The notes under the pieces were generated by a model, which saw only the letters and a program-made list of their open reading frames with translations, was not told the DNA's origin and did not search any database. Below are positions 15,076-57,591 of a stretch of 64,000 nt of DNA, in pieces. The position numbers and the translations under genes were made by a program. Every line of letters begins with the position of its first letter. The first letter of the stretch is position 1. The DNA comes from Candidatus Hydrogenedentota bacterium (lineage in GTDB: Bacteria > Hydrogenedentota > Hydrogenedentia > Hydrogenedentales > JAGMZX01), in assembly GCA_029556545.1 (NCBI GenBank), contig JAKQEQ010000192.1, positions 1 through 64,000 on the forward strand. Direction: 5' to 3'.

Positions 15076-16317
15076 GTGAAAACGATTACCGTCGAAGTGC
15101 GCGACGACCACCTCGAAACGCTGGCGCGCACGAAGCCCATGAACGCCCTCGCGGAACTGGTCTGGAACGCGCTGGACGCGGAAGCCACCGTGATCCGCGT
15201 CGAATTCGTCGAGAACAACATGGGCGGCATCGAGACGGTCCGGGTCTCGGACGACGGATACGGACTCCATTATGACGACGCCTTCATCGTCTTCCGCAAC
15301 CTGGGCGGCTCGTGGAAGCGCGAAGGACTGCGCACCCATCGGCGTAAGCGCATTCTGCATGGGCGCTACGGGCGCGGGCGGTTCCGCGCGTTCTCGCTCG
15401 GCAACCACGTTGAGTGGCGGACGGTGTACGAGGAAGCCGGCGACCGATACGGCTACGGCATCACCGGGCGGGCGGCGCGGCTCGGCGAATTCGAGATCAG
15501 CGACGCGCGCGGGTGTCCGGGGAAGCCGACAGGGCTTACGGTGACTGTTTCGGCCCTTTCGCAGGGCGTCGAACTGCTGCGCGGCGTGAAGGCGCTCGCG
15601 GAAGTCACGGACATCTTCGCGCCGTACATGCGACAGTATCCCGACGTGAAGATCATCTATGACGGCGTGCCGCTCGATCCGGCGAACGCCGAGGATTGCG
15701 CGCGCGACTACCTTCTCCCCGAGTTGGTGATGCAGAACGGCGAGCGCGTGCGCGCGGTGCTGACCGTCGTCGAGTGGAACACGCCGGGGAAACGCGGCGT
15801 GTTTCTGTGCAATGAAAGCGGCTTCATGCTGCATCACGCGCTCCCCCGGCTCTATTTCCGCGGGTTCAGTTACTCGGCCTACCTGAAGTCCGCGCACCTC
15901 GCCGCGCTGGACGAACAAGGGCTGCTCCAGGTCGAGGAACTATCGCCGGACCTGCGCCAGTTGCTCGATGCGACGCGGGCCAAGCTGCGCGAGCATTTCA
16001 CCTTTCGCGAGGTCGAGCGCGCACAGGACACGCTGGCTTACTGGCGCGAACTGGGCATCTACCCCTACGAGGGCGTCTCGACGTCGTCCGCCGAGGAAAA
16101 CGAGCGCCGCATCTTCGAAATCTACGCGACGCACTTGAACCAGATTTTCGCCGACTTCGCGGAATCGAGCCTGCGCAACAAGCGTCTTACGCTACGCCTC
16201 ATCCAGGAACTCGTCCGCAGCGAGCCCACGCGCATGGCCCGCATCCTCGACGAACTCCTCGATTTCCCGGAGGATAAAGAGAACGAAATCCTGGAGCTCA
16301 CGGGCGAGACACGCTGA
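15076..16317 (+). CDS. GHKL (Hsp90/MutL-like) ATPase, probably truncated at the C-terminus
   Basis: The 413-residue protein has a clear GHKL ATP-binding domain: N-box ELVWNALDAEA with E27, N31 and D34, G1 box SDDGYGLHYDD with D60, and a glycine-rich lid around HGRYGRGRFRAFSLG at 96-109. Larger proteins of this type, as I recall them, run on into a helical region and a C-terminal nuclease-like domain and total 700 or more residues. Here the sequence stops just after the helical stretch NKRLTLRLIQELV and DFPEDKENEILEL. The last codons and the TGA lie inside a dispersed hairpin repeat (16308-16333), so an element may have cut the gene short. The alternative is a natural short form. Some relatives sit in defence islands; no such island is evident here. 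Confidence 0.7.
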   Translation: MKTITVEVRDDHLETLARTKPMNALAELVWNALDAEATVIRVEFVENNMGGIETVRVSDDGYGLHYDDAFIVFRNLGGSWKREGLRTHRRKRILHGRYGRGRFRAFSLGNHVEWRTVYEEAGDRYGYGITGRAARLGEFEISDARGCPGKPTGLTVTVSALSQGVELLRGVKALAEVTDIFAPYMRQYPDVKIIYDGVPLDPANAEDCARDYLLPELVMQNGERVRAVLTVVEWNTPGKRGVFLCNESGFMLHHALPRLYFRGFSYSAYLKSAHLAALDEQGLLQVEELSPDLRQLLDATRAKLREHFTFREVERAQDTLAYWRELGIYPYEGVSTSSAEENERRIFEIYATHLNQIFADFAESSLRNKRLTLRLIQELVRSEPTRMARILDELLDFPEDKENEILELTGETR

Positions 16318-16333
16318 AGCGTGTACTACGAAC
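16308..16333 (+). repeat. TGAA-loop hairpin repeat, copy 1 of the cluster
   Basis: GACA, stem CACGC, loop TGAA, stem GCGTG, tail TACTACGAAC. The first three bases of the loop are the stop codon of the GHKL ATPase gene. The stem differs at two positions from the 1.7-kb copy (CAGCC) with matching changes on the other arm. Confidence 0.8.
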
Positions 16334-16335
16334 GG

Positions 16336-16361
16336 GTTTGTAGTGCAGCCTTCAGGCTGTC
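16336..16361 (-). repeat. TGAA-loop hairpin repeat, inverted copy 2 of the cluster
   Basis: Read on the minus strand this is GACA, CAGCC, TGAA, GGCTG, CACTACAAAC, almost identical to the 1.7-kb copy. It faces copy 1 tail to tail with a 2-nt gap, so the two tails are themselves complementary and the pair could form a larger cruciform, as REP/BIME elements do. Confidence 0.8.
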
Positions 16362-16366
16362 TTGAA

Positions 16367-16413
16367 GACACGCTGAAGCGTATACTGCGAACTGCAGAGT
16401 TTGTACTACAAAC
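16367..16413 (+). repeat. TGAA-loop hairpin repeats, copy 3 and degenerate copy 4
   Basis: Copy 3 (16367-16392) is GACA, CACGC, TGAA, GCGTA, TACTGCGAAC, with a mismatch at the base of the stem. Copy 4 (16389-16413) has stem GAACT/AGTTT around a GCAG loop and then the tail TACTACAAAC, so it looks like a decayed unit. They end 71 nt before the leuS start. A TATAGT at 16426-16431 may be the leuS -10 element, but its spacing to the TTGTAC of the last tail is 19 nt, so this is weak. Confidence 0.65.
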
Positions 16414-16484
16414 GCGCGCGTATGCTATAGTCCCGCGCGATTCCTTGTTTTCCACGCAGACGCCTCACGGGAGTGTTTCATCTG

Positions 16485-19010
16485 ATGTCGAACGGCGGTT
16501 ATGACCACAAAGCCATCGAGCGGAAGTGGCAGGAATTCTGGCTGAAGAACAAGACGTTCAAGGCGGAAATCGACCACAACAAGCCGAAGTATTACGTGCT
16601 CGATATGTTTCCGTATCCGAGCGGGGACGGCCTTCACGTCGGCCACCCGGAAGGGTACACGGCGACGGATATTCTCGCGCGGTACAAGCGCATGAAGGGT
16701 TTCAACGTCCTGCATCCGATGGGCTGGGACGCCTTCGGCCTACCGGCCGAGCGCCACGCCATGCGCACGGGCGAACACCCGGCGGTGGTGACGAATAAGA
16801 ACTGCGACGTGTTCCGGCGGCAAATCCAGGCACTCGGGCTTTCTTATGACTGGGACCGCGAGATCAATACGACGGACCCGGCCTACTATAAGTGGACGCA
16901 GTGGATCTTCACCGTGCTTTTCGAGCGCGGCCTCGCCTATGAGGTCGAGGCGCCGGTCAACTGGTGCCCGGCGCTGAACACGGTGCTCGCGAACGAGGAA
17001 GTGAAGGACGGCAAGTACGTCGAGACGGGCGACCCGGTCGAGAAGCGCATGCTGCGCCAGTGGATGCTGAGGATCACGGCCTATGCGGAGAAACTGCTCG
17101 AGGACCTCGACGGTCTGGACTGGCCCGAGGGCATCAAGGCGATGCAGCGCGAGTGGATCGGCCGGAGCGAGGGCGCGGACGCGCTGTTCAAGGTCGCGGG
17201 ATCGGGCGAGGAGTTCTGGGTCTTCACCACGCGGCCCGACACGCTTTTCGGCGCCACGTATTGCGTGCTCGCGCCGGAGCATCCGCTCGTCGCGCGGATC
17301 ACCACGGACGCCCAGCGCGCGGCGGTGCAGACCTACGTCGAGGCGGCGTCCCACAAGAGCGCGCAGGAGCGCATGGCCGACGAGCGCGACAAGACGGGGG
17401 TGTTCACGGGCGCGCACGCGATCAATCCGGTGAACAACGCCGAAGTCCCGATCTGGGTCGCGGATTACGTGCTCGCGGAATACGGCTATGGCGCGATCAT
17501 GGCCGTACCCGCCCATGATACCCGCGACTACGCCTTCGCGAAGAAGTTTGAACTGCCGATCATCGAGGTGGTCTCGGGCGGCGACATCTCCGAAGCGGCC
17601 TATACCGGCGATGGCGTGATGGTGAATTCGCACATCATCGACGGGCTGCCGGTGCCGGAAGCGAAGCGGAAGATCACGGCATGGCTCGAGGAGCGCGGCC
17701 TCGGCAAGGCCACCGTAAATTATAAGCTGCGCGACTGGTTGTTCTCGCGACAGCGCTATTGGGGCGAACCGTTCCCGGTGCTCCGCCTCGAAGACGGCAC
17801 GGTGAAGACGGTCCCAATGAAGGACCTGCCGGTGCTGCTGCCGGACCTCGACGAGTATAAGCCGACGCCGGACGGGCAGCCGCCGCTGGCGCGCGCGGAC
17901 GCCTGGGTCCACACGATCGATCCGGAAACGGGCCGGCCCGCGACGCGCGAGACGAACACCATGCCGCAATGGGCGGGGTCATGCTGGTATTTCCTGCGTT
18001 TCGTGGACGCGCAGAACAACCAGGCCGCATGGTCGCCCGAGGCGGAGCAATACTGGATGCCCGTGGACCTCTACGTCGGCGGCGCGGAACACGCCGTGCT
18101 GCATCTGCTGTACTCGCGCTTCTGGCACAAGGTGCTCTACGACGCGGGGCACGTCACGTCGAAGGAGCCGTTTCTCAAACTTTTCAATCAGGGAATGATC
18201 CTGGCGTATTCGTATCGCGACAAACAGGGGAAGTATTACTATCCAAAACAGGTCGAAAAGCGCGGCGACATGTGGTACGTCAAGGAGACGGACGTCGAAG
18301 TCGAGACGCAAATCGAGAAGATGAGCAAGTCGCGCTACAACGTGGTGAACCCGGACGAAGTCATCGAGGAATACGGCGCGGACGCGATGCGGCTATACGA
18401 GATGTTCATGGGGCCTCTCGATCGCGAGAAGCCGTGGACGGATGAGGGCATTCAAGGCGTATTCCGCTTTATCCGGCGTGTCTGGGCACTCTTTATAGCC
18501 GAGGACGGCGGCCTGCACTCCCGCATCGTGGCCTCGGGCGACGACCCCGCGATATGCAAACTGTTGCACAAAACGATCAAGGCGGTCACCCACGACATCG
18601 AGCATCTGCTCTTCAACACGGCCATCGCGCGCATGATGGAGTTCGTCAACGCGGCCTATAAGGCCGAGGCCGTCAACCGACGGGTAATGGAGCAATTCGC
18701 GCTCATACTTTCGCCCTTCGCGCCGCACATGGGCGAGGAATTGTGGGAGCGGCTCGGCCACGCCGATACCCTGGCCTATGAGCCGTGGCCCGAGCACGAC
18801 GAAGCGCTGCTCGTCGAGGACACGATCGAGATTCCGGTCCAGATTCAAGGCAAGATGCGCGGGGTAATCGCGGTCGCCGCGGACGCGGAAAAGGACGCTA
18901 TTCTCGCGGCGGCCAAGTCGGACGAGAAGATCGCGAAACACCTCGAAGGCAAGACGGTGGTGAAGGAGATTTACGTGCCGGGCCGGATGGTGAATCTGAT
19001 CGTGAAGTAA
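16485..19010 (+). CDS. leuS: Leucyl-tRNA synthetase
   Basis: The 841-residue class I synthetase charges tRNA-Leu with leucine. The HIGH motif is HVGH at 51-54 after YPSGDGL, and KMSKS is at 612-616. The editing domain CP1 is inserted in between ([20 protein letters not shown] and the [15 protein letters not shown] region). The anticodon-binding domain and a short C-terminal domain ending [11 protein letters not shown] complete it. I chose ATG 16485, with GGGAG 11 nt upstream; a GTG at 16473 in the same frame is possible. The length is slightly under the usual 860. Confidence 0.97.
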
Positions 19011-19094: not shown

Positions 19095-19179
19095 CCTGGA
19101 TTCCCGCTTTTGCGGGAATGACGGGTTGTTGACGATGCGCCGCCTTGGCCCGTCATTCCCGCAAAAGCGGGAATCCAGG
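19095..19179. repeat. Perfect 31-bp inverted pair of GGATTCCCGC-type dispersed repeats
   Basis: Two arms of 31 nt (19095-19125 and 19149-19179) are exact reverse complements around a 23-nt spacer. Each arm is itself a unit of the form GGATTCCCGC-NNNN-GCGGGAATGAC, a short repeat known from many bacterial genomes. A single further copy lies at 35086. The pair sits between the convergent stops of leuS (19010) and the radical SAM gene (19208), so it could terminate transcription from both sides. Confidence 0.9.
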
Positions 19180-27717: not shown

Positions 27718-28872
27718 ATGAGAGTGCTTCGCGCTTGGTTGATGGCCATTCCTGTGTTCACGCGATACTTCCTCTATCGCGTTGGCTTGGCGCGTCGGCC
27801 TAAGTTCACCGACTACTACCCGGAGTACCAGGCCTTCTGCGGATCGATCCTGCACTGGGACCGCCGCACGCGGATCGTCGGCGCGGAGCATTGCCCGCGC
27901 CAGGGACCGGCGGTTTTCGCGGCGAACCACGTGCGCATCACCGACCCGCTATACCTCTTTCGCGCCGTGACGCGCGCGAGCGGCGGGGGCCTTTACGTGC
28001 GCTTCATGGCCCGGGACGATTTCTTCAAGCACTGGGCGTGGCGGTTCTTCCCGTTCAAGCCGAGCGATATGCTCGAAATGGGCGGCGCTTGTTTCATCAG
28101 CCGGGGCAGCGCGAAACCCGCGCAACTGAAACCGTTTGTCGACCTGCTCGATCAGCGAGAGTCCTTCCTCCTGTTTCCCGGCGGCACGCGCACGCGAAGC
28201 GGTGTCCTCATCGAGTACAGCGTGCGCTCCGCCCGATCGCGCGGCGTCGCGTTTTTTCTCGCGCAGACGCAATCGAGGCATCCCGACTGGTCCGTGCCCG
28301 CTGTGCCGCTTGTGCGCACATTCAACCCCGTGCGGCACAACAGCGTGGTCGTATTTGGTCCGCCCCTTTACCTCGAACCGGACGCGGACCGGGAGCGGCA
28401 GCGGGCCTTCGACGAAGAATTGGCCGCGCGGCTCGGCGAACTGGTCGAGATTCACGTCCCGCACCTTGTATGCGCGCTGCTGTATTTGTGGTGTCTCCAC
28501 AGGCGGGGCTGTGAACTGCCCGTGAGCGCGCTACGCGGGGCCTGTGCGCATGCGCGCGACAGACTGGAAAGCCGGCACATCCATCCCGACGCCTTTGTGC
28601 GTCTGGACGGGGAGATTCGCGCGACGCTGCGTTACCTGCGGAGGCGCGGCATGGTGCGGCTCACGCGACACCACGTTCGTCCAGACACGGACCGCATCCT
28701 GGGGTGTCCGCCTCTCGATACGAAGTATCGCAAGCGGAATCCCGTGAAGTTCATCGCGAATCAACTGTTGCATATGCCGGATGTGATACGGGCCGTCGAA
28801 GCCGCCGCCGAGGGCATGGGGGAAAGGGGCGGGGCCGTCCCGCCCCCGGAGGGGTCCTCGCCCTCACTCTGA
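27718..28872 (+). CDS. PlsC-like lysophospholipid acyltransferase family protein
   Basis: The 384-residue protein has the acyltransferase motif N70-H71-x4-D76 in AANHVRITDPL and a second block FPGGTRTRSG, a variant of FPEGTRS. It likely transfers an acyl chain to a glycerol phosphate-type lipid at the membrane. The C-terminal third (about residues 245-360) is extra compared with small PlsC proteins and contains HARDRLESRHIHPD and a winged-helix-like RATLRYLRRRGMVRL. The last residues (SSPSL) and the stop codon come from a dispersed CCCTCTCCC-type repeat, so the natural end may have been changed. Confidence 0.82.
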   Translation: MRVLRAWLMAIPVFTRYFLYRVGLARRPKFTDYYPEYQAFCGSILHWDRRTRIVGAEHCPRQGPAVFAANHVRITDPLYLFRAVTRASGGGLYVRFMARDDFFKHWAWRFFPFKPSDMLEMGGACFISRGSAKPAQLKPFVDLLDQRESFLLFPGGTRTRSGVLIEYSVRSARSRGVAFFLAQTQSRHPDWSVPAVPLVRTFNPVRHNSVVVFGPPLYLEPDADRERQRAFDEELAARLGELVEIHVPHLVCALLYLWCLHRRGCELPVSALRGACAHARDRLESRHIHPDAFVRLDGEIRATLRYLRRRGMVRLTRHHVRPDTDRILGCPPLDTKYRKRNPVKFIANQLLHMPDVIRAVEAAAEGMGERGGAVPPPEGSSPSL

Positions 28873-28893
28873 CCCTCTCCCTCGGGGAGAGGG
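28861..28893. repeat. CCCTCTCCC-TCG-GGGAGAGGG dispersed hairpin repeat
   Basis: A perfect 9-bp stem (28873-28881 with 28885-28893) around a TCG loop, preceded by CCCTCACTCTGA. This short repeat, often with CCCTCACCCCAACC in front, is found in many bacterial genomes. Another full copy is at 57493-57525 and a partial one at 57561-57576. It overlaps the stop codon of the acyltransferase gene. Confidence 0.8.
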
Positions 28894-28928
28894 ATGCAAT
28901 GGGAGACCCTCGGTCGTTGCCGTGGCGC

Positions 28929-34978: not shown

Positions 34979-35085
34979 TCAGTCCCTTATCATCCCCTTA
35001 TCATGACGCAGGCCCGGCGGCGCGGATGCGGGCGAAATTGAGGGGTTCTTTCAAGTACAATCGTTGGGCGAAGAGCGGGTTTGCG

Positions 35086-35115
35086 CTGGATTCCCGCTTG
35101 CGCGGGAATGACGGG
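35086..35115 (+). repeat. GGATTCCCGC-type repeat, single copy
   Basis: CTGGATTCCCGC, TTGC, GCGGGAATGACGGG: the same unit as each arm at 19.1 kb with a different loop (TTGC instead of TTTT). The stem is CCCGC/GCGGG extended by the flanks. Confidence 0.8.
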
Positions 35116-35206
35116 GTGACGGGGCAAGGACGATTACGATTACGAGGACGATTACGAGGACGAGTGCGAGTAGGAGTAGGAGGATGAGGATGAGGATGGG
35201 CGGGTT

Positions 35207-48640: not shown

Positions 48641-48660
48641 CGGGCTGAAGCCCGGACTAG
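48641..48660 (+). repeat. TGAA-loop hairpin repeat at the start codon of the sugar dehydrogenase
   Basis: Stem CGGGC, loop TGAA, stem GCCCG, then GACTAG and at once the ATG of the gene at 48661. The tail is cut short, and GACA is replaced by GATG. It occupies the position where a ribosome binding site would be expected. Confidence 0.65.
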
Positions 48661-49947
48661 ATGCTAAAGGAGCGTTGTATTCGCATCGCAGTCATAGGAA
48701 TGGGGTATGTCGGGGTTCCGCTTGCGGTCGAGTTTGCCCGGGGCGGCCTCGAAGTGGTCGGCATTGATACGAACGGCGAGCGCGTGGACGCGATCAATGC
48801 GGGCCGGTCCTATGTTGTGGACGTGCCGGATGCCGCAGTAGCGGAACCGGTCGCCGGGGGCAGGCTGCGCGCGACCGGCGATTGCGCCGCGTTGGCGGAG
48901 GTGGAGGCCGCGTGCATTTGCGTGCCGACGCCGCTGCGCAAAAGCCAGGACCCGGATATCTCGCACATCGTTGAGGCGGTCGAGCAGATACGGGAACGTC
49001 TCCACTCCGGCATGACCATCGTGCTCGAAAGCACAACGTATCCCGGCACGACGGAGGAACTCGTGCTGCCGAAGCTCGAGGAGACCGGCCTCCGCGTCGG
49101 CAAGGATTTCTTCCTTGCGTTTTCGCCCGAGCGGGTGGACCCGGGCAACCGGCAGTACGGCGTGCGCAACACCCCGAAGGTGATCGGGGGCGTCACCCGC
49201 GCCTGCACGGAGAAGGCTGTGGCGCTGTATCGGCACGCGGTCGATACGCTCGTGCCGGTCGCGGACGCCCGCGCCGCGGAAATGGTGAAGTTGCTCGAGA
49301 ACACATTCCGGGCGATCAACATCGGGATGGTCAACGAACTGGCGCTTATCTGCGACCGGCTCGGGGTGGACGTCTGGGAGGTCATCGAAGCGGCGAAGAC
49401 CAAGCCCTTCGGGTTCATGCCCTTCTATCCAGGGCCGGGCCTCGGCGGCCACTGCATCCCCATCGACCCGTTGTACCTGTCCTGGAAGATGAAGACCATC
49501 AACTACACGGCGCGGTTCATCGAACTTGCCAGCGCGATAAACGCCGGGATGCCCTCCTACGTGGTGGAGAAGGCCGCGCGGGCTCTCAACGACCGGCGCA
49601 AGAGCGTGAACGGGAGCCGCATTCTGGTCTTGGGCGTGGCGTACAAGCGGGATGTAAGCGACACGCGCGAGTCGCCGGCGGTCGACATCATCGGGATGCT
49701 CCAGTCGCGCGGGGCGGAGGTGGCGTATGCGGACCCGCACGTACCGACGTTGGACGTGACGGGCGCCACGATGACCGCGCATGACTTGCGCCGGGGCGCG
49801 GCGGGATTTGATCTACTCATCATCGTTACGGATCATACGGCCTTCGATTACCCGCGGCTGCTGTCGGAGGCGTCGCTCGTGCTGGATACGCGCAACGCAA
49901 CTTCCGGATTCAAACCGCCCGACGGCTGCACGATCATCAAGCTATAG
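48661..49947 (+). CDS. UDP-sugar dehydrogenase (nucleotide sugar dehydrogenase, WbpA-like)
   Basis: The 428-residue enzyme has the NAD-binding start RIAVIGMGYVGVPLAVEFARGGLEV and the catalytic Cys265 in GPGLGGHCIPIDPLYLSWK. SPERVDPGN is also conserved, as is the C-terminal VLGVAYKRDVSDTRESPAVDI. It oxidises a UDP-hexose (probably UDP-GlcNAc type, as in WbpA/WecC) in two steps to the uronate for surface polysaccharide. The start is uncertain: ATG 48661 has no Shine-Dalgarno because a hairpin repeat fills that position, and AAGGAG lies only inside the ORF. No better start exists before the conserved RIAVIG. Confidence 0.92.
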   Translation: MLKERCIRIAVIGMGYVGVPLAVEFARGGLEVVGIDTNGERVDAINAGRSYVVDVPDAAVAEPVAGGRLRATGDCAALAEVEAACICVPTPLRKSQDPDISHIVEAVEQIRERLHSGMTIVLESTTYPGTTEELVLPKLEETGLRVGKDFFLAFSPERVDPGNRQYGVRNTPKVIGGVTRACTEKAVALYRHAVDTLVPVADARAAEMVKLLENTFRAINIGMVNELALICDRLGVDVWEVIEAAKTKPFGFMPFYPGPGLGGHCIPIDPLYLSWKMKTINYTARFIELASAINAGMPSYVVEKAARALNDRRKSVNGSRILVLGVAYKRDVSDTRESPAVDIIGMLQSRGAEVAYADPHVPTLDVTGATMTAHDLRRGAAGFDLLIIVTDHTAFDYPRLLSEASLVLDTRNATSGFKPPDGCTIIKL

Positions 49948-51401: not shown

Positions 51402-53324
51402 TTACTTGGAAGACGGGCTGTCCAGGACCTTTACGAGTCCTTCGTAGAGCCTTGCGGCAGTGTCACGGTAGGACTGGTCCGCGGCGGTTTGTGACGGTTC
51501 CGGCAAGGGCGCGAGTTTCTTTTCCTGTTGCAGACGGCGGCGCTCGGCGATGGTGAGCACATATTCGAGCGCGAGTCGCGCATGCGCGGCCTCGTAGGAC
51601 CGCCCCCCTCCCACGTCGTAACAGGCACGAAGGCGCTGGATATCCACGTTGGGCAGTTCCGCAGCCACGCTCCAGCGCGTGTCGTCCTCCGGCGGCAAGG
51701 CGGGCGCGGCAAGTTCCCACGGACGAAGCCGTCCGAGATCGCCGTCGCCGAGCGCGATAAAGACGAACGCCGTTTCCGGCAGCGCGTCATAGGGCAGCGT
51801 GACCTTCTCGCCGTCGAACCGCGGCCATTCCCGGTCATTTACGCGCACGGCGGCGACGGGGCCGCTCCCGACTGTAGCCAGGCACAGTCGCTTCTCGCCG
51901 AAGCGGATGGGAAACCGTTGTTCGAGGCGGGTAATCGACGGCGGAACATGCGGGATGATCGTCAACGCATCCGCGGCGTAGAGATACTCGAAGAGCCCGC
52001 GGACAAACGCGGCGGGCGGCCCGAAGGCGTCGTAGGTGATGTTGATCGGCTCCTTCGGCTGATAGACCTTGCTACCGAACTCGACCAGCGGATTGTCCAT
52101 GCGAAACTGCCGGGCGAAGCCGAGCATGTGCTCCATCGAGCGACGCGCGTCATCGTATGCGCCAAGGCGGTAGTAGGCCATGACCATGCGGGCCTCGCAC
52201 GTGGACCAGTGCCCGCCGTTGACCCACGTGCCGTGCTGCCACAACCACGACGTGGGCGGCTCGTACATATCGTCGAGACCGGGCTCGTTCGCCTGAATGA
52301 CGTGATGGCGGCGGAGCAGCGGGATGGAAACGATCTTGTCGTGGATGCGGCGGGACTGGGCGTCATCGACGACGCGAAACGCGATGGCGTCGTGGTTGGG
52401 CGAGGCTTCGAAGTAGCCGTGCTTCTCCGCGCCGTAGACGCCGTGGCGCGTGCCGTCCGGGTCGAGCGACTTGATGAAATAGCCCTCGTCGGTCGCGAGT
52501 CTGGCAAGGCCGGCTTTCGCGAGGTCGCGGCGCTCGGCATACACGGCGGCCTTCTCGGGGTCGCCCGCGAGTTTGTCGACCTCGATGAGCCGGTCGAGCG
52601 CGGCGATATACGTGATCGAGAGCCCGGTCAGATAGGCGTGTTTGTACGTGCCGTCCGGCTGCTTCCACCCGGCGTAACTGGGTGCAAGCAGGTTCGCCGC
52701 GGGCCCCGCGAGAAACAGGTCATTGTCCGGATCGCGCCGGGACTCGATGAAGTTCGCGCACCGCTCGAGCTTGGGCAGGTAATGCGCGATCTCCGCCGGG
52801 TTTCGCCGGATCAGCATCCATTCCGCTTGCATCAGGAGCCCCGCCGCGGTGAATTCCATGCCCCAGTCGTGCATCGCGTGGCGGCCATCGCCCTGGCGGT
52901 AATGAATGACGCCCGGCGCGGCGGCGTCGCAAAGGCTGCCGTCGGGCGCGACGTAGCCGTGATTGCCCGCGCGCTTGCCGTCGCCCATCTGGTCGAACCA
53001 GAGGTCGTGGCTGTTCATGAGAAACGTGCTATAGGGTTCCTCGAAGAACGGCATGGCGCAGTAGGTCGGGCCGTAGCTGTTCTGTATCCACCACGCGCCC
53101 CACGTCGGCCCTTCGACGAGGCCGTTCCACGCGGGGGTATACAGCATCGGGAGGTTCTGAAACTCGGGGTCCGGCCCGAACATCCGCCGCGCGATATCGA
53201 GCAGTTCCAGGTAAGCCGTATCCCCCTCGCCAATGTAGAACTTCCCTTCGAAATCTTCCGCCTCTCCCGAGACGGTGAAGACTAGACTGATTAAGACCAA
53301 CACAACGCCACCTATCGTTTTCAT
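51402..53324 (-). CDS. Exported six-hairpin (alpha/alpha) glycoside hydrolase-like protein
   Basis: The 640-residue protein begins with a signal peptide (VVLVLISLVFTVSGEAE). The rest has the (alpha/alpha)6 pattern of clan GH-L/GH-G-like glycosidases: QGDGRHAMHDWGMEFTAAGLLMQAEW, NFIESRRDPDNDLF, LTGLSITYIAALDRL and the C-terminal beta-sandwich VPPSITRLEQRFPIRFGEKRL. The acidic residues of the H-DWG-E and E-P-L-DMYEP segments are candidates for catalysis. A family number cannot be given safely; GH63- and GH78-like relatives are the closest guess. Start ATG 53324 is preferred over an upstream ATG at 53384 because the signal peptide is then complete. Confidence 0.75.
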   Translation of the reverse strand: MKTIGGVVLVLISLVFTVSGEAEDFEGKFYIGEGDTAYLELLDIARRMFGPDPEFQNLPMLYTPAWNGLVEGPTWGAWWIQNSYGPTYCAMPFFEEPYSTFLMNSHDLWFDQMGDGKRAGNHGYVAPDGSLCDAAAPGVIHYRQGDGRHAMHDWGMEFTAAGLLMQAEWMLIRRNPAEIAHYLPKLERCANFIESRRDPDNDLFLAGPAANLLAPSYAGWKQPDGTYKHAYLTGLSITYIAALDRLIEVDKLAGDPEKAAVYAERRDLAKAGLARLATDEGYFIKSLDPDGTRHGVYGAEKHGYFEASPNHDAIAFRVVDDAQSRRIHDKIVSIPLLRRHHVIQANEPGLDDMYEPPTSWLWQHGTWVNGGHWSTCEARMVMAYYRLGAYDDARRSMEHMLGFARQFRMDNPLVEFGSKVYQPKEPINITYDAFGPPAAFVRGLFEYLYAADALTIIPHVPPSITRLEQRFPIRFGEKRLCLATVGSGPVAAVRVNDREWPRFDGEKVTLPYDALPETAFVFIALGDGDLGRLRPWELAAPALPPEDDTRWSVAAELPNVDIQRLRACYDVGGGRSYEAAHARLALEYVLTIAERRRLQQEKKLAPLPEPSQTAADQSYRDTAARLYEGLVKVLDSPSSK

Positions 53325-53432: not shown

Positions 53433-55019
53433 ATGGATCGCCGAGAGTTTATACGACTTGCAGGCGCGAGTCTGGCATGTGCGGCCACCGGGATGCCGGA
53501 AGTGTCAGGACAGGAAGAATGCGTATTGGGCGGCAGATCAAGACCGAATTTCCTGATCATCCTCGCGGATGACATGGGTTTCTCGGACCTGGGCTGCTAC
53601 GGGTCCGAGATACGCACGCCGCATCTGGACGGCCTTGCGTCGGAGGGGCTGCTCTTCACGCAGGGGTACAACTGCGCGCGATGCTGCCCGTCGCGGGCAG
53701 CGTTGCTCACGGGGCTGTATCCGCATCAGGCAGGCGTCGGGAAGATGGTAAGTGCGCCGGACGCGCCGGAGCGGCCCGGTCCGTATCAGGGGTATCTGAA
53801 CGACCATTGCGCGACCCTGGCCGAGGTGTTGCGGGCCGCGGGTTACCGGACGTACATGTCGGGGAAATGGCACGTGGGCGAAGCGCCGGAGCATTGGCCG
53901 CGCAAGCGCGGGTTTGACCGCTATTTCGGGTTGATCAGCGGCGCGAGCAGCTACTGGGAACTCATCGATCAGCCAGATCGCAAGCGCATGATGGCCCAGG
54001 ACGACGAGCCTTTCACGCCCGAGCCGGGCGAATTCTACATGACGGACGCCTTCAGCGATTTCGCCGTGCGCTGCGTGAAGGAGCACGCGGGGCACGAGGA
54101 TCCGTTCCTCCTGTATCTCGCCTACACCGCGCCGCATTGGCCGCTGCACGCCTGGCCGGAGGATATCGCGCGGCACGAGGACGCATACCGTATCGGCTGG
54201 GAAGAGTTGCGGCGGCGGCGCTACGCCCGCCAGCGCGCGTTAGGCGTCATCGACCCGAAGTGGCCCCTGTCGCCTTTGGACGAGGAAGTCCCGCCATGGG
54301 AAGCGGTCGAGGACAAACCGTATTGGGAGCGGCTCATGGCTGTGTACGCCGCCATGATCGACCGCATGGACCATGGGATCGGGCGGGTGCTGCGCGCCCT
54401 CGAGGAGACCGGCGCGGCGGAGAACACCATCGTGGTCTTCTTGTCGGATAACGGCGGTTGCGCCGAGGACATCGCGGGGCGCAAACTGCACACGCCCGGC
54501 ACGCGCGCCGGCGAGCGCGGCTCCTACGACGCCTATAAGCGCCCCTGGGCCAACGCCAGCAACACGCCGTTCCGTCTCTACAAGAAATGGATTCACGAGG
54601 GCGGCATCGCCACGCCGTTCCTCATGCGCTGGCCGCGCGGCATCGCGCAACCCGGCGGCATGACGCATCAGGTCGCGCATATCATCGACATCATGCCGAC
54701 GTGTCTCGACGCGGCGGGCGTCGCCTATCCCGAGACCTTTGACGAACGTCCCGTGCTCCCGGTCGAGGGACGGAGCCTCCTCCCCATTCTGCGCGGAGAG
54801 ACGCGCGAGCCGCATCCCGCGCTGTTCTGGGAGCACTTCGGCAACCGGGGCGTCCGGGCGGGCGACTGGAAATACGTGGCCGCCGCGAATGGCGATTGGG
54901 AGCTCTACAACCTCGCCGAGGACCGGACCGAACTGCGCGACCTCGGCGGCACGGCCCCGGAAAAGGCGCGGGAACTTCACGCGCTGTACGAAGCCTGGGC
55001 ACAGCGCGTCGGTGTGTAG
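53433..55019 (+). CDS. Exported type I sulfatase with C-x-P-S-R motif
   Basis: The 528-residue enzyme has an N-terminal RREFIR that resembles a Tat signal, ending near the EVSGQEE region. The sulfatase fold begins NFLIILADDMGFSDLGCYGSEIRTPHLDGLASEG, and the nucleophile motif is C84-C85-P86-S87-R88 in YNCARCCPSRAALLTG; Cys84 should be converted to formylglycine. Metal-binding Asp and the C-terminal VRAGDWKYVAAANGDWELYNLAED are typical. It likely hydrolyses sulfate esters of polysaccharides. A putative anaerobic maturase is convergent 42 nt downstream. Confidence 0.95.
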   Translation: MDRREFIRLAGASLACAATGMPEVSGQEECVLGGRSRPNFLIILADDMGFSDLGCYGSEIRTPHLDGLASEGLLFTQGYNCARCCPSRAALLTGLYPHQAGVGKMVSAPDAPERPGPYQGYLNDHCATLAEVLRAAGYRTYMSGKWHVGEAPEHWPRKRGFDRYFGLISGASSYWELIDQPDRKRMMAQDDEPFTPEPGEFYMTDAFSDFAVRCVKEHAGHEDPFLLYLAYTAPHWPLHAWPEDIARHEDAYRIGWEELRRRRYARQRALGVIDPKWPLSPLDEEVPPWEAVEDKPYWERLMAVYAAMIDRMDHGIGRVLRALEETGAAENTIVVFLSDNGGCAEDIAGRKLHTPGTRAGERGSYDAYKRPWANASNTPFRLYKKWIHEGGIATPFLMRWPRGIAQPGGMTHQVAHIIDIMPTCLDAAGVAYPETFDERPVLPVEGRSLLPILRGETREPHPALFWEHFGNRGVRAGDWKYVAAANGDWELYNLAEDRTELRDLGGTAPEKARELHALYEAWAQRVGV

Positions 55020-56483: not shown

Positions 56484-56903
56484 TTATTTCTCCCTCGCGG
56501 TGCGGTCGTCGTCCGGGTCTTGCCGAATTTCCGCTTCCGTGGGAACGACCGCCGCTTTCCCGCGCGCGCGGCGCATTCGCCGCGCCTTTTGCTTGCGGGC
56601 TTTCTCGCGGCGCAACGCTTCCGGGCTTTCCGCGCCCAGCGCGCGGTTCTCGACGAGTTCGCACAGGCGGCGACGCGCCAGGAATCGGTTGAGCGCCTGC
56701 GAACGGGCCCGCTGCATCTTCACCTCGATGCCCGTGGGGCGATGCATCAGTTGCACGCACGTGTTCGAGCGGTTCACCTTCTGGCCGCCGGGGCCGCCAC
56801 TCGTGACAAAGCGTTCGTCGATATCGTCTTCGCGCAATCCGAGCGCCGCCATGCGGGCGGCGAGGTCGGCCTCCTTTTGCGGCGTAACGCCAAAACGGCT
56901 CAT
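56484..56903 (-). CDS. RF1-like translational rescue protein (ArfB/C12orf65-type)
   Basis: The 139-residue protein has the GGQ segment VTSGGPGGQKVNRSNTCVQ, with GGQ at 39-41, and a basic C-terminal tail (ARSQALNRFLARRRLCELVE and RREKARKQKARRMRRARGK). It resembles the short peptidyl-tRNA hydrolases that rescue stalled ribosomes, such as ArfB/YaeJ and the mitochondrial C12orf65. It lacks the codon-recognition domain of RF1/RF2. The start at 56903 is supported by GGAAAG upstream. An earlier ATG at 56948 is in frame but overlaps the repeat. Confidence 0.85.
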   Translation of the reverse strand: MSRFGVTPQKEADLAARMAALGLREDDIDERFVTSGGPGGQKVNRSNTCVQLMHRPTGIEVKMQRARSQALNRFLARRRLCELVENRALGAESPEALRREKARKQKARRMRRARGKAAVVPTEAEIRQDPDDDRTAREK

Positions 56904-56943
56904 CGCGTGTGCTTTCCAGAGAAGACCCGACAAGCAGGGCCGT

Positions 56944-56969
56944 GACAAGCTGAAGCTTGAACTACGAAC
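56944..56969 (+). repeat. TGAA-loop hairpin repeat upstream of rnpB
   Basis: GACA, stem CAAGC, loop TGAA, stem GCTTG, tail AACTACGAAC. The stem differs from all other copies (CAGCC, CACGC, CGGGC) but stays fully paired. It lies 113 nt upstream of the rnpB 5' end and about 40 nt before the RF1-like start on the other strand. Confidence 0.8.
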
Positions 56970-57081: not shown

Positions 57082-57450
57082 GCGAGCAGGCTGGGCGGCC
57101 GCGGTGGGCTTCGGCCCGTCGAGGAAAGTCCGGACTCCACAGGGCAGGGTGCTTGGTAACGCCAAGGCGGGGCGACCCGACGGAAAGTGGAACAGAAACG
57201 ACACCGCCGATGGTCCGCTTCGGTGGACACAGGCAAGGGTGAAATGGTGCGGTAAGAGCGCACCGGCGTCGTGGCGACACGGCGGCCGTCTAAACCCCAC
57301 CCGGAGCAAGTCCAAATAGGGGAGCAATGACGTGGCCCGCGTCGCTCCCGGGTAGGACGCTTGAGGCGCGCGGCAACGCGCGTCCCAGAGGAATGGCCGT
57401 CTCGGGGGCTTCGGCCCCTACGACAGAATCCGGCTTACAGGCCTGCTCGC
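57082..57450 (+). ncRNA. rnpB: RNase P RNA, class A
   Basis: The bacterial RNase P ribozyme, 369 nt, that removes 5' leaders from tRNA precursors. The ends GCGAGCAGGC and GCCTGCTCGC form the 10-bp P1 stem. The universal conserved regions are present: GAGGAAAGTCCGGACTCC, the ACAGAAACGACA core segment and the 3' AGAATCCGGCTTA. GGGGCTTCGGCCCC and other stem-loops match class A. A TAATAT at 57071-57076 is a possible -10 element about 6 nt before the start, with no good -35. Downstream lie several short hairpins that could terminate it. Confidence 0.97.
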
Positions 57451-57465
57451 GTTCTCTTGGCGTGG

Positions 57466-57545
57466 CACGGGCGTCTCGCCCGTGGTCTGGAACCCTCACC
57501 CCAACCCTCTCCCTCGGGGAGAGGGGGCGGATCGGACGGATCAGA
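57466..57545. repeat. Cluster of three dispersed repeat types after rnpB
   Basis: A perfect 8-bp hairpin CACGGGCG-TCT-CGCCCGTG (57466-57484) comes first, then a full CCCTCTCCC-TCG-GGGAGAGGG element with its CCCTCACCCCAA lead (57493-57525), then two 9-nt CGGATCGGA/CGGATCAGA units (57528-57545). A partial CCCTC element follows at about 57561. They start 16 nt after the RNA end. Their order suggests a hot spot for repeat insertion. Confidence 0.7.
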
Positions 57546-57591
57546 CAGGCCCCAACGTTCCCCCTCGGGGAGAGGGAGCGTGGCAAGACGA

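Follow-up and report, generated by a model that had tools for sequence, protein, structure and literature searches.

What is the short hairpin with a TGAA loop that recurs around 16.3 kb and at distant places in the analysed stretch of 64,000 nucleotides (hereafter the window) of a Candidatus Hydrogenedentota genome, and how has it been spread? A simple count sets it apart from the background: the window holds five perfect hairpins with a 5-bp stem and a TGAA loop compared with 0.31 expected (maximum 2 in 100 Markov-1 resamples), and every one of them was already listed in the first-pass annotation. The pattern of loop plus tail with at most two mismatches likewise gives five matches in the window and 0.47 in shuffles. 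A covariance model finds five full-length copies, each with an E-value of about 3e-6 or better, one partial copy and nothing else convincing; the 21 distinct genome copies on which this model was trained include those of the window, and the independent check is the simple hairpin count. On the opposite strand the unit reads GTT[C/T]-GTAG-TN-stem-TTCA-stem-TC, that is, it is a palindrome of 20–40 bp with GTAG at one end, and GTAG REPs are defined as palindromes with such a tag (Di Nocera et al. 2013, PMC3733652).

The window copies are located at gene edges. The first one, with a CAGCC stem (1678–1705, GTAG-reading strand minus; R1 match, E 5.4e-11), begins 22 nt past the stop codon of ORF 757–1656. 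The second (16306–16333, minus strand, E 2.9e-11) has a CACGC stem which is extended to 6 bp by an A-T pair and folds as DNA. Its loop overlaps the end of a gene for a HATPase_c_3 protein (15076–16317, plus strand): the TGA of the loop is the stop codon of this gene, yielding the C-terminus ELTGETR*, and related proteins end within a few residues. This copy stands 2 nt to the left of an inverted dimer (16336–16392) with the GTAG ends outside and a 1-nt gap, a REPIN according to the model matches, the pair geometry and the DNA fold. The dimer is a heterodimer in which CAGCC and CACGC stems are combined. Its left REP is GTTTGTAGTGCAGCCTTCAGGCTGTC (16336–16363, plus strand, E 6.2e-9); its right REP (16365–16392, minus strand, E 3.1e-6) carries one stem mismatch and an altered tag. 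A further copy with a CAAGC stem (56942–56969, minus strand, E 2.3e-10) sits between ORF 56484–56948 on the minus strand and rnpB (57083–57453). Thus, the copies that had been proposed at 1680, 16308, 16336 (inverted), 16367 and 56944 are all full-length model matches, and their stem sequences are as originally described. The copy proposed at 48641 stands in part. Its CGGGC stem and its loop match (48641–48659, minus strand, E 8.3e-4), but the match covers model positions 5–23 only, that is, the stem, the loop and the first five nucleotides of the tail; the GTAG tag is lost, and we regard the hairpin, which immediately precedes ORF 48661–49947, as decayed.

On the contrary, the supposed decayed copy at 16389 is not a REP. 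It is a separate palindrome, GTTTGTACTACAAAC (about 16397–16412), which is also found as GTTTGCACTGCAAAC in a congener (G001, 90% protein identity), before leuS and without any REP. In the window it is placed upstream of leuS (16473–19010) and beside a TATAGT box, and the two species differ by a compensatory change (GTTTGTAcTACAAAC in the window, GTTTGCAcTGCAAAC in G001). This conserved palindrome before leuS resembles an operator.

The family is not confined to the window. Across the genome, loop plus tail occur in exact form 42 times, whereas the reversed control is never found; relaxing the pattern to at most two mismatches, with R accepted at one position, yields 195 matches for the motif and 77 for the control. 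The genome-wide covariance-model scan that the first-pass annotation had suggested returned at least 140 hits at E ≤ 1 among 150 scored candidates, distributed over many contigs. This copy number is far from a chance few and gives the family the high-copy, dispersed character of a GTAG REP. Because most stems have 5 bp, a search that required at least 6 bp of stem after GTAG gave nothing useful. The same genome (G000) also contains a GGAG-tagged sub-family, GTTCGGAGTGCGGGCTTCA (G000:C19:49478, C25:5820, C36:116733 and C52:21886).

How the copies are paired was determined for 110 compiled sites, which are those among the matches listed and not all copies of the genome. Of these, 68 have a neighbour within 120 nt, forming 19 inverted pairs with GTAG outside, 3 inverted pairs with GTAG inside and 16 direct pairs. 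The gap of the GTAG-outside pairs is 0–1 nt in 17 of 19 cases and exactly 1 nt in 16, and the three GTAG-inside pairs have a gap of 2 nt. Hence the commonest pair is inverted, with GTAG outside and 1 nt between the two units, and inverted doublets prevail among neighbours as in REPINs. The initial comparison with a BIME made of REP elements is borne out, with the correction that the usual inverted pair has GTAG outside (19 versus 3) and is not tail-to-tail.

Do the stems change in a compensatory way? The 21 distinct genome copies were picked by loop and tail only and the 5′ arm was left free. In this set 88.1% of the cells are paired compared with 72.7% after shuffling, and double changes, one on each side of the pair, occur in 18 cells versus 6.5 in shuffles, a number reached by none of 500 shuffles; the pairing signal is lost when the partner is slid. 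Single units fold as drawn as single-stranded DNA with z of about −3 to −4. The compensatory changes reported for the window therefore hold in copies whose 5′ arm had no part in their selection. They come mostly from a few sub-types, CACGC, CAGCC, CAGGC and CAAGC, and so represent few events that were copied many times. The conclusion drawn earlier, that covariation demonstrates selection on a folded RNA or DNA, needs to be narrowed: recognition of a DNA hairpin together with copying of sub-types explains the covariation, whereas a selected RNA is not shown by covariation alone.

The first-pass annotation had also supposed a RAYT-type transposase as the driver and a gene flanked by the same motif. 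Such a gene is present in the same genome outside the window (G000:C116:53188–53787, 199 aa). A motif scan of public genomes led to a contig of bin_212 on which a RAYT gene lies between clusters of the same REP, and the protein of this REPtron, used as query, retrieved the C116 gene, whose product is 54% identical. The C116 gene has REPs on both sides, upstream at 53093–53120 (minus), 53122–53149 (plus) and about 53152–53175 (plus), the last one ending 12 nt ahead of the start codon, and downstream at 53817–53844 (plus); it thus forms a REPtron, a gene flanked by its cognate REPs. The protein matches the NCBIfam model REP_Tyr_transpos (NF047646) with E 8e-20 and 71 bits, which is below the cut-off of 80, and its homologue at L150 scores 80.2 bits. 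Comparison with the TnpArep structure PDB 4er8 (E 1.4e-4) aligns the HUH and tyrosine regions; the HUH motif is NHYH, and in DYIYINPVKHG the tyrosine of the protein is aligned with that of 4er8. The frame is open and intact with both motifs. The Pfam model Y1_Tnp detects the protein weakly (14 bits), and a search with it in this genome gave five genes, with the motif near none of them; used alone, it misses the cognate transposase gene. Most likely, the C116 gene encodes the transposase that spreads these REPs.

Another Y1 gene of the genome, on contig C36, is flanked by inverted hairpins of a different type, TTCCCAAGTTGTACTTGGGAA (L035, 1258–1282 and 1889–1913), with about ten dispersed copies in the genome, and the Y1 genes at L031, L032 and L034 each have their own hairpins nearby. 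Several transposase/hairpin pairs thus seem to coexist. The window itself contains a second REP class, CGTC-ATTCCCGC-AAAA-GCGGGAAT-CCA, as an inverted dimer (19095–19179) and as a single copy (35083–35118), which fits the published description of CGTC-1 with an 8-bp stem, a 4-nt loop and a CCA tail. In addition, CCCTCTCCCTCGGGGAGAGGG palindromes at 28861–28897 and 57493–57580 fit the GGGGWSAS motif reported for the terminal repeats of TIR-flanked tyrosine transposases; the unit at 57.5 kb has several near-exact matches in G001.

Homologues that are 50–53% identical to the bin_212 protein are found in Lentisphaerae (G044), KSB1 (G046) and Victivallales (G043). The hairpins beside them all have TTCA loops and are tagged with GTAG in the former two and with GGAG in the latter. 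Orthologues at L177, L178 and L180 are flanked by R1 matches, and the Victivallales orthologue L181 has GGAG-tagged TTCA hairpins on both sides; its tag resembles that of the GGAG sub-family described above. At 33 other Y1 loci none of the matches is full-length with its hairpin intact: the only hits are three weak ones (E 0.27–0.33), all of them partial or lacking a hairpin. In contigs of Verrucomicrobiales JAEUHD (L139, L147) the motif forms tandem clusters with a spacing of about 104–110 bp. The RAYT copy of G044 has one in-frame stop. G009 has 93 model hits and a broken RAYT copy, and G001 has 26 model hits and no RAYT orthologue. Thus, the RAYT is not needed to retain REPs once they are present.

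The congener also allowed us to compare sites. At the two alignable orthologous sites of the window G001 has no REP. Ahead of leuS its HATPase gene stops at roughly the same codon, in sequence unrelated to that of the window, and a REP is missing there; nor is there one downstream of the gene matching ORF 757–1656. The region around 56942 is too different for comparison. As a presence/absence difference between species, not a precise empty site, this is consistent with insertion.

Given the structure, the copy number, the pair geometry, the REP-flanked RAYT, the co-occurrence of both across phyla and the absence from the congener, we are confident that the hairpins are GTAG-tagged REPs, often REPINs, which behave as non-autonomous single-stranded DNA elements spread by one cognate RAYT/TnpA-REP. 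By analogy to the TnpA-REP systems of E. coli and Stenotrophomonas and to published work on REPs and REPINs (PMC8266576, PMC3116915), the RAYT would bind the folded single strand via the GTAG tag and the short stem–loop, its HUH histidines and tyrosine would cut next to the element, and the strand would be rejoined at a new site, so that a REP or REPIN would travel as a single strand. The predicted substrate of the C116 protein is single-stranded GTTCGTAGTACACGCTTCAGCGTGTC. With such recognition the stem sequence would be free provided that pairing is kept, giving rise to covariation. Secondarily, an inserted hairpin may act in mRNA 3′ ends.

The element appears to be an ordinary member of the known RAYT/REP kind, judged against the published description of the GTAG families, of which there are 24 (PMC3733652). 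Common to the GTAG super-family are GTAG at one end, a perfect short stem closing a small loop, sub-types whose stems differ by paired changes, dimers of HH and TT orientation with 1–2 bp between the units (Opitutus terrae GTAG-17 and GTAG-19 dimers have spacers of 1–2 bp), REPs supplying stop codons and the presence in the PVC superphylum (PMC3733652). In contrast, the stop codon is supplied here by the TGA in the loop as read on the complementary strand and not by the TAG of the tag, the stem of 5–6 bp lies towards the lower limit of the range, and the tag is extended to GTTC-GTAG-T. With the RAYT/TnpA-REP systems (E. coli 4ER8; group 3 of S. maltophilia and Marinomonas; PMC8266576) it shares HUH and tyrosine and REPs on either side of the gene, and with group 3 also the perfect-palindrome REPs; it differs by a protein of 199 aa that is weak under Pfam Y1_Tnp. 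In the REPINs of Pseudomonas fluorescens SBW25, too, the unit appears to consist of two REPs in inverted orientation; those doublets were modelled as segments of 71 or 110 bp, whereas there is almost no spacer here (PMC3116915).

A different question, which concerns present activity and not identity, is whether the family is a relic in which the RAYT is inactive and the copies of REP origin decay. Many degenerate copies in the genome, the broken RAYT of G009 and the in-frame stop in G044 point in this direction, but the RAYT of the genome itself is intact with its catalytic residues and several identical copies persist, and we consider a relic possible though doubtful. It is far less probable that the hairpins persist because they function as RNA, as stabilisers or attenuators of mRNA 3′ ends, with RNA selection and not transposition explaining their number and covariation. 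The copies at 1678 and 16306 are indeed at 3′ ends of genes and the stems also fold; yet four features fit a mobile element, namely the conserved unpaired GTTC-GTAG-T tag, the fixed geometry of the inverted dimers, the same units on both sides of the RAYT and their absence from orthologous sites, and an Rfam search with the hairpins matched no family. Chance hairpins or intrinsic terminators, which the position of some hairpins after genes might suggest, are ruled out by the counts (five for 0.31 expected, reversed control 0 genome-wide) and by the constant tag without a T-run.

The identification as GTAG REPs with their RAYT thus yields a RAYT together with its REPs, a complete pair that has homologous counterparts in KSB1, Lentisphaerae and Victivallales, largely from the PVC group, where REPs have been little studied. 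Stem and tag (GTAG versus GGAG) vary among the pairs, which makes them useful for testing how a RAYT recognises its hairpin. The most interesting part is that one RAYT clade is matched with one hairpin type across phyla. Tentatively, and with somewhat less than even expectation, we propose that these transposases form a separate RAYT group, poorly recognised by Pfam, whose hairpins have stayed of a single type (loop TTCA, stem of 5–6 bp, extended tag GTTC-G[T/G]AG-T) in several phyla, with proteins that are only ∼50% identical. If this is true, the rule by which a RAYT recognises its hairpin could be read from natural variation.
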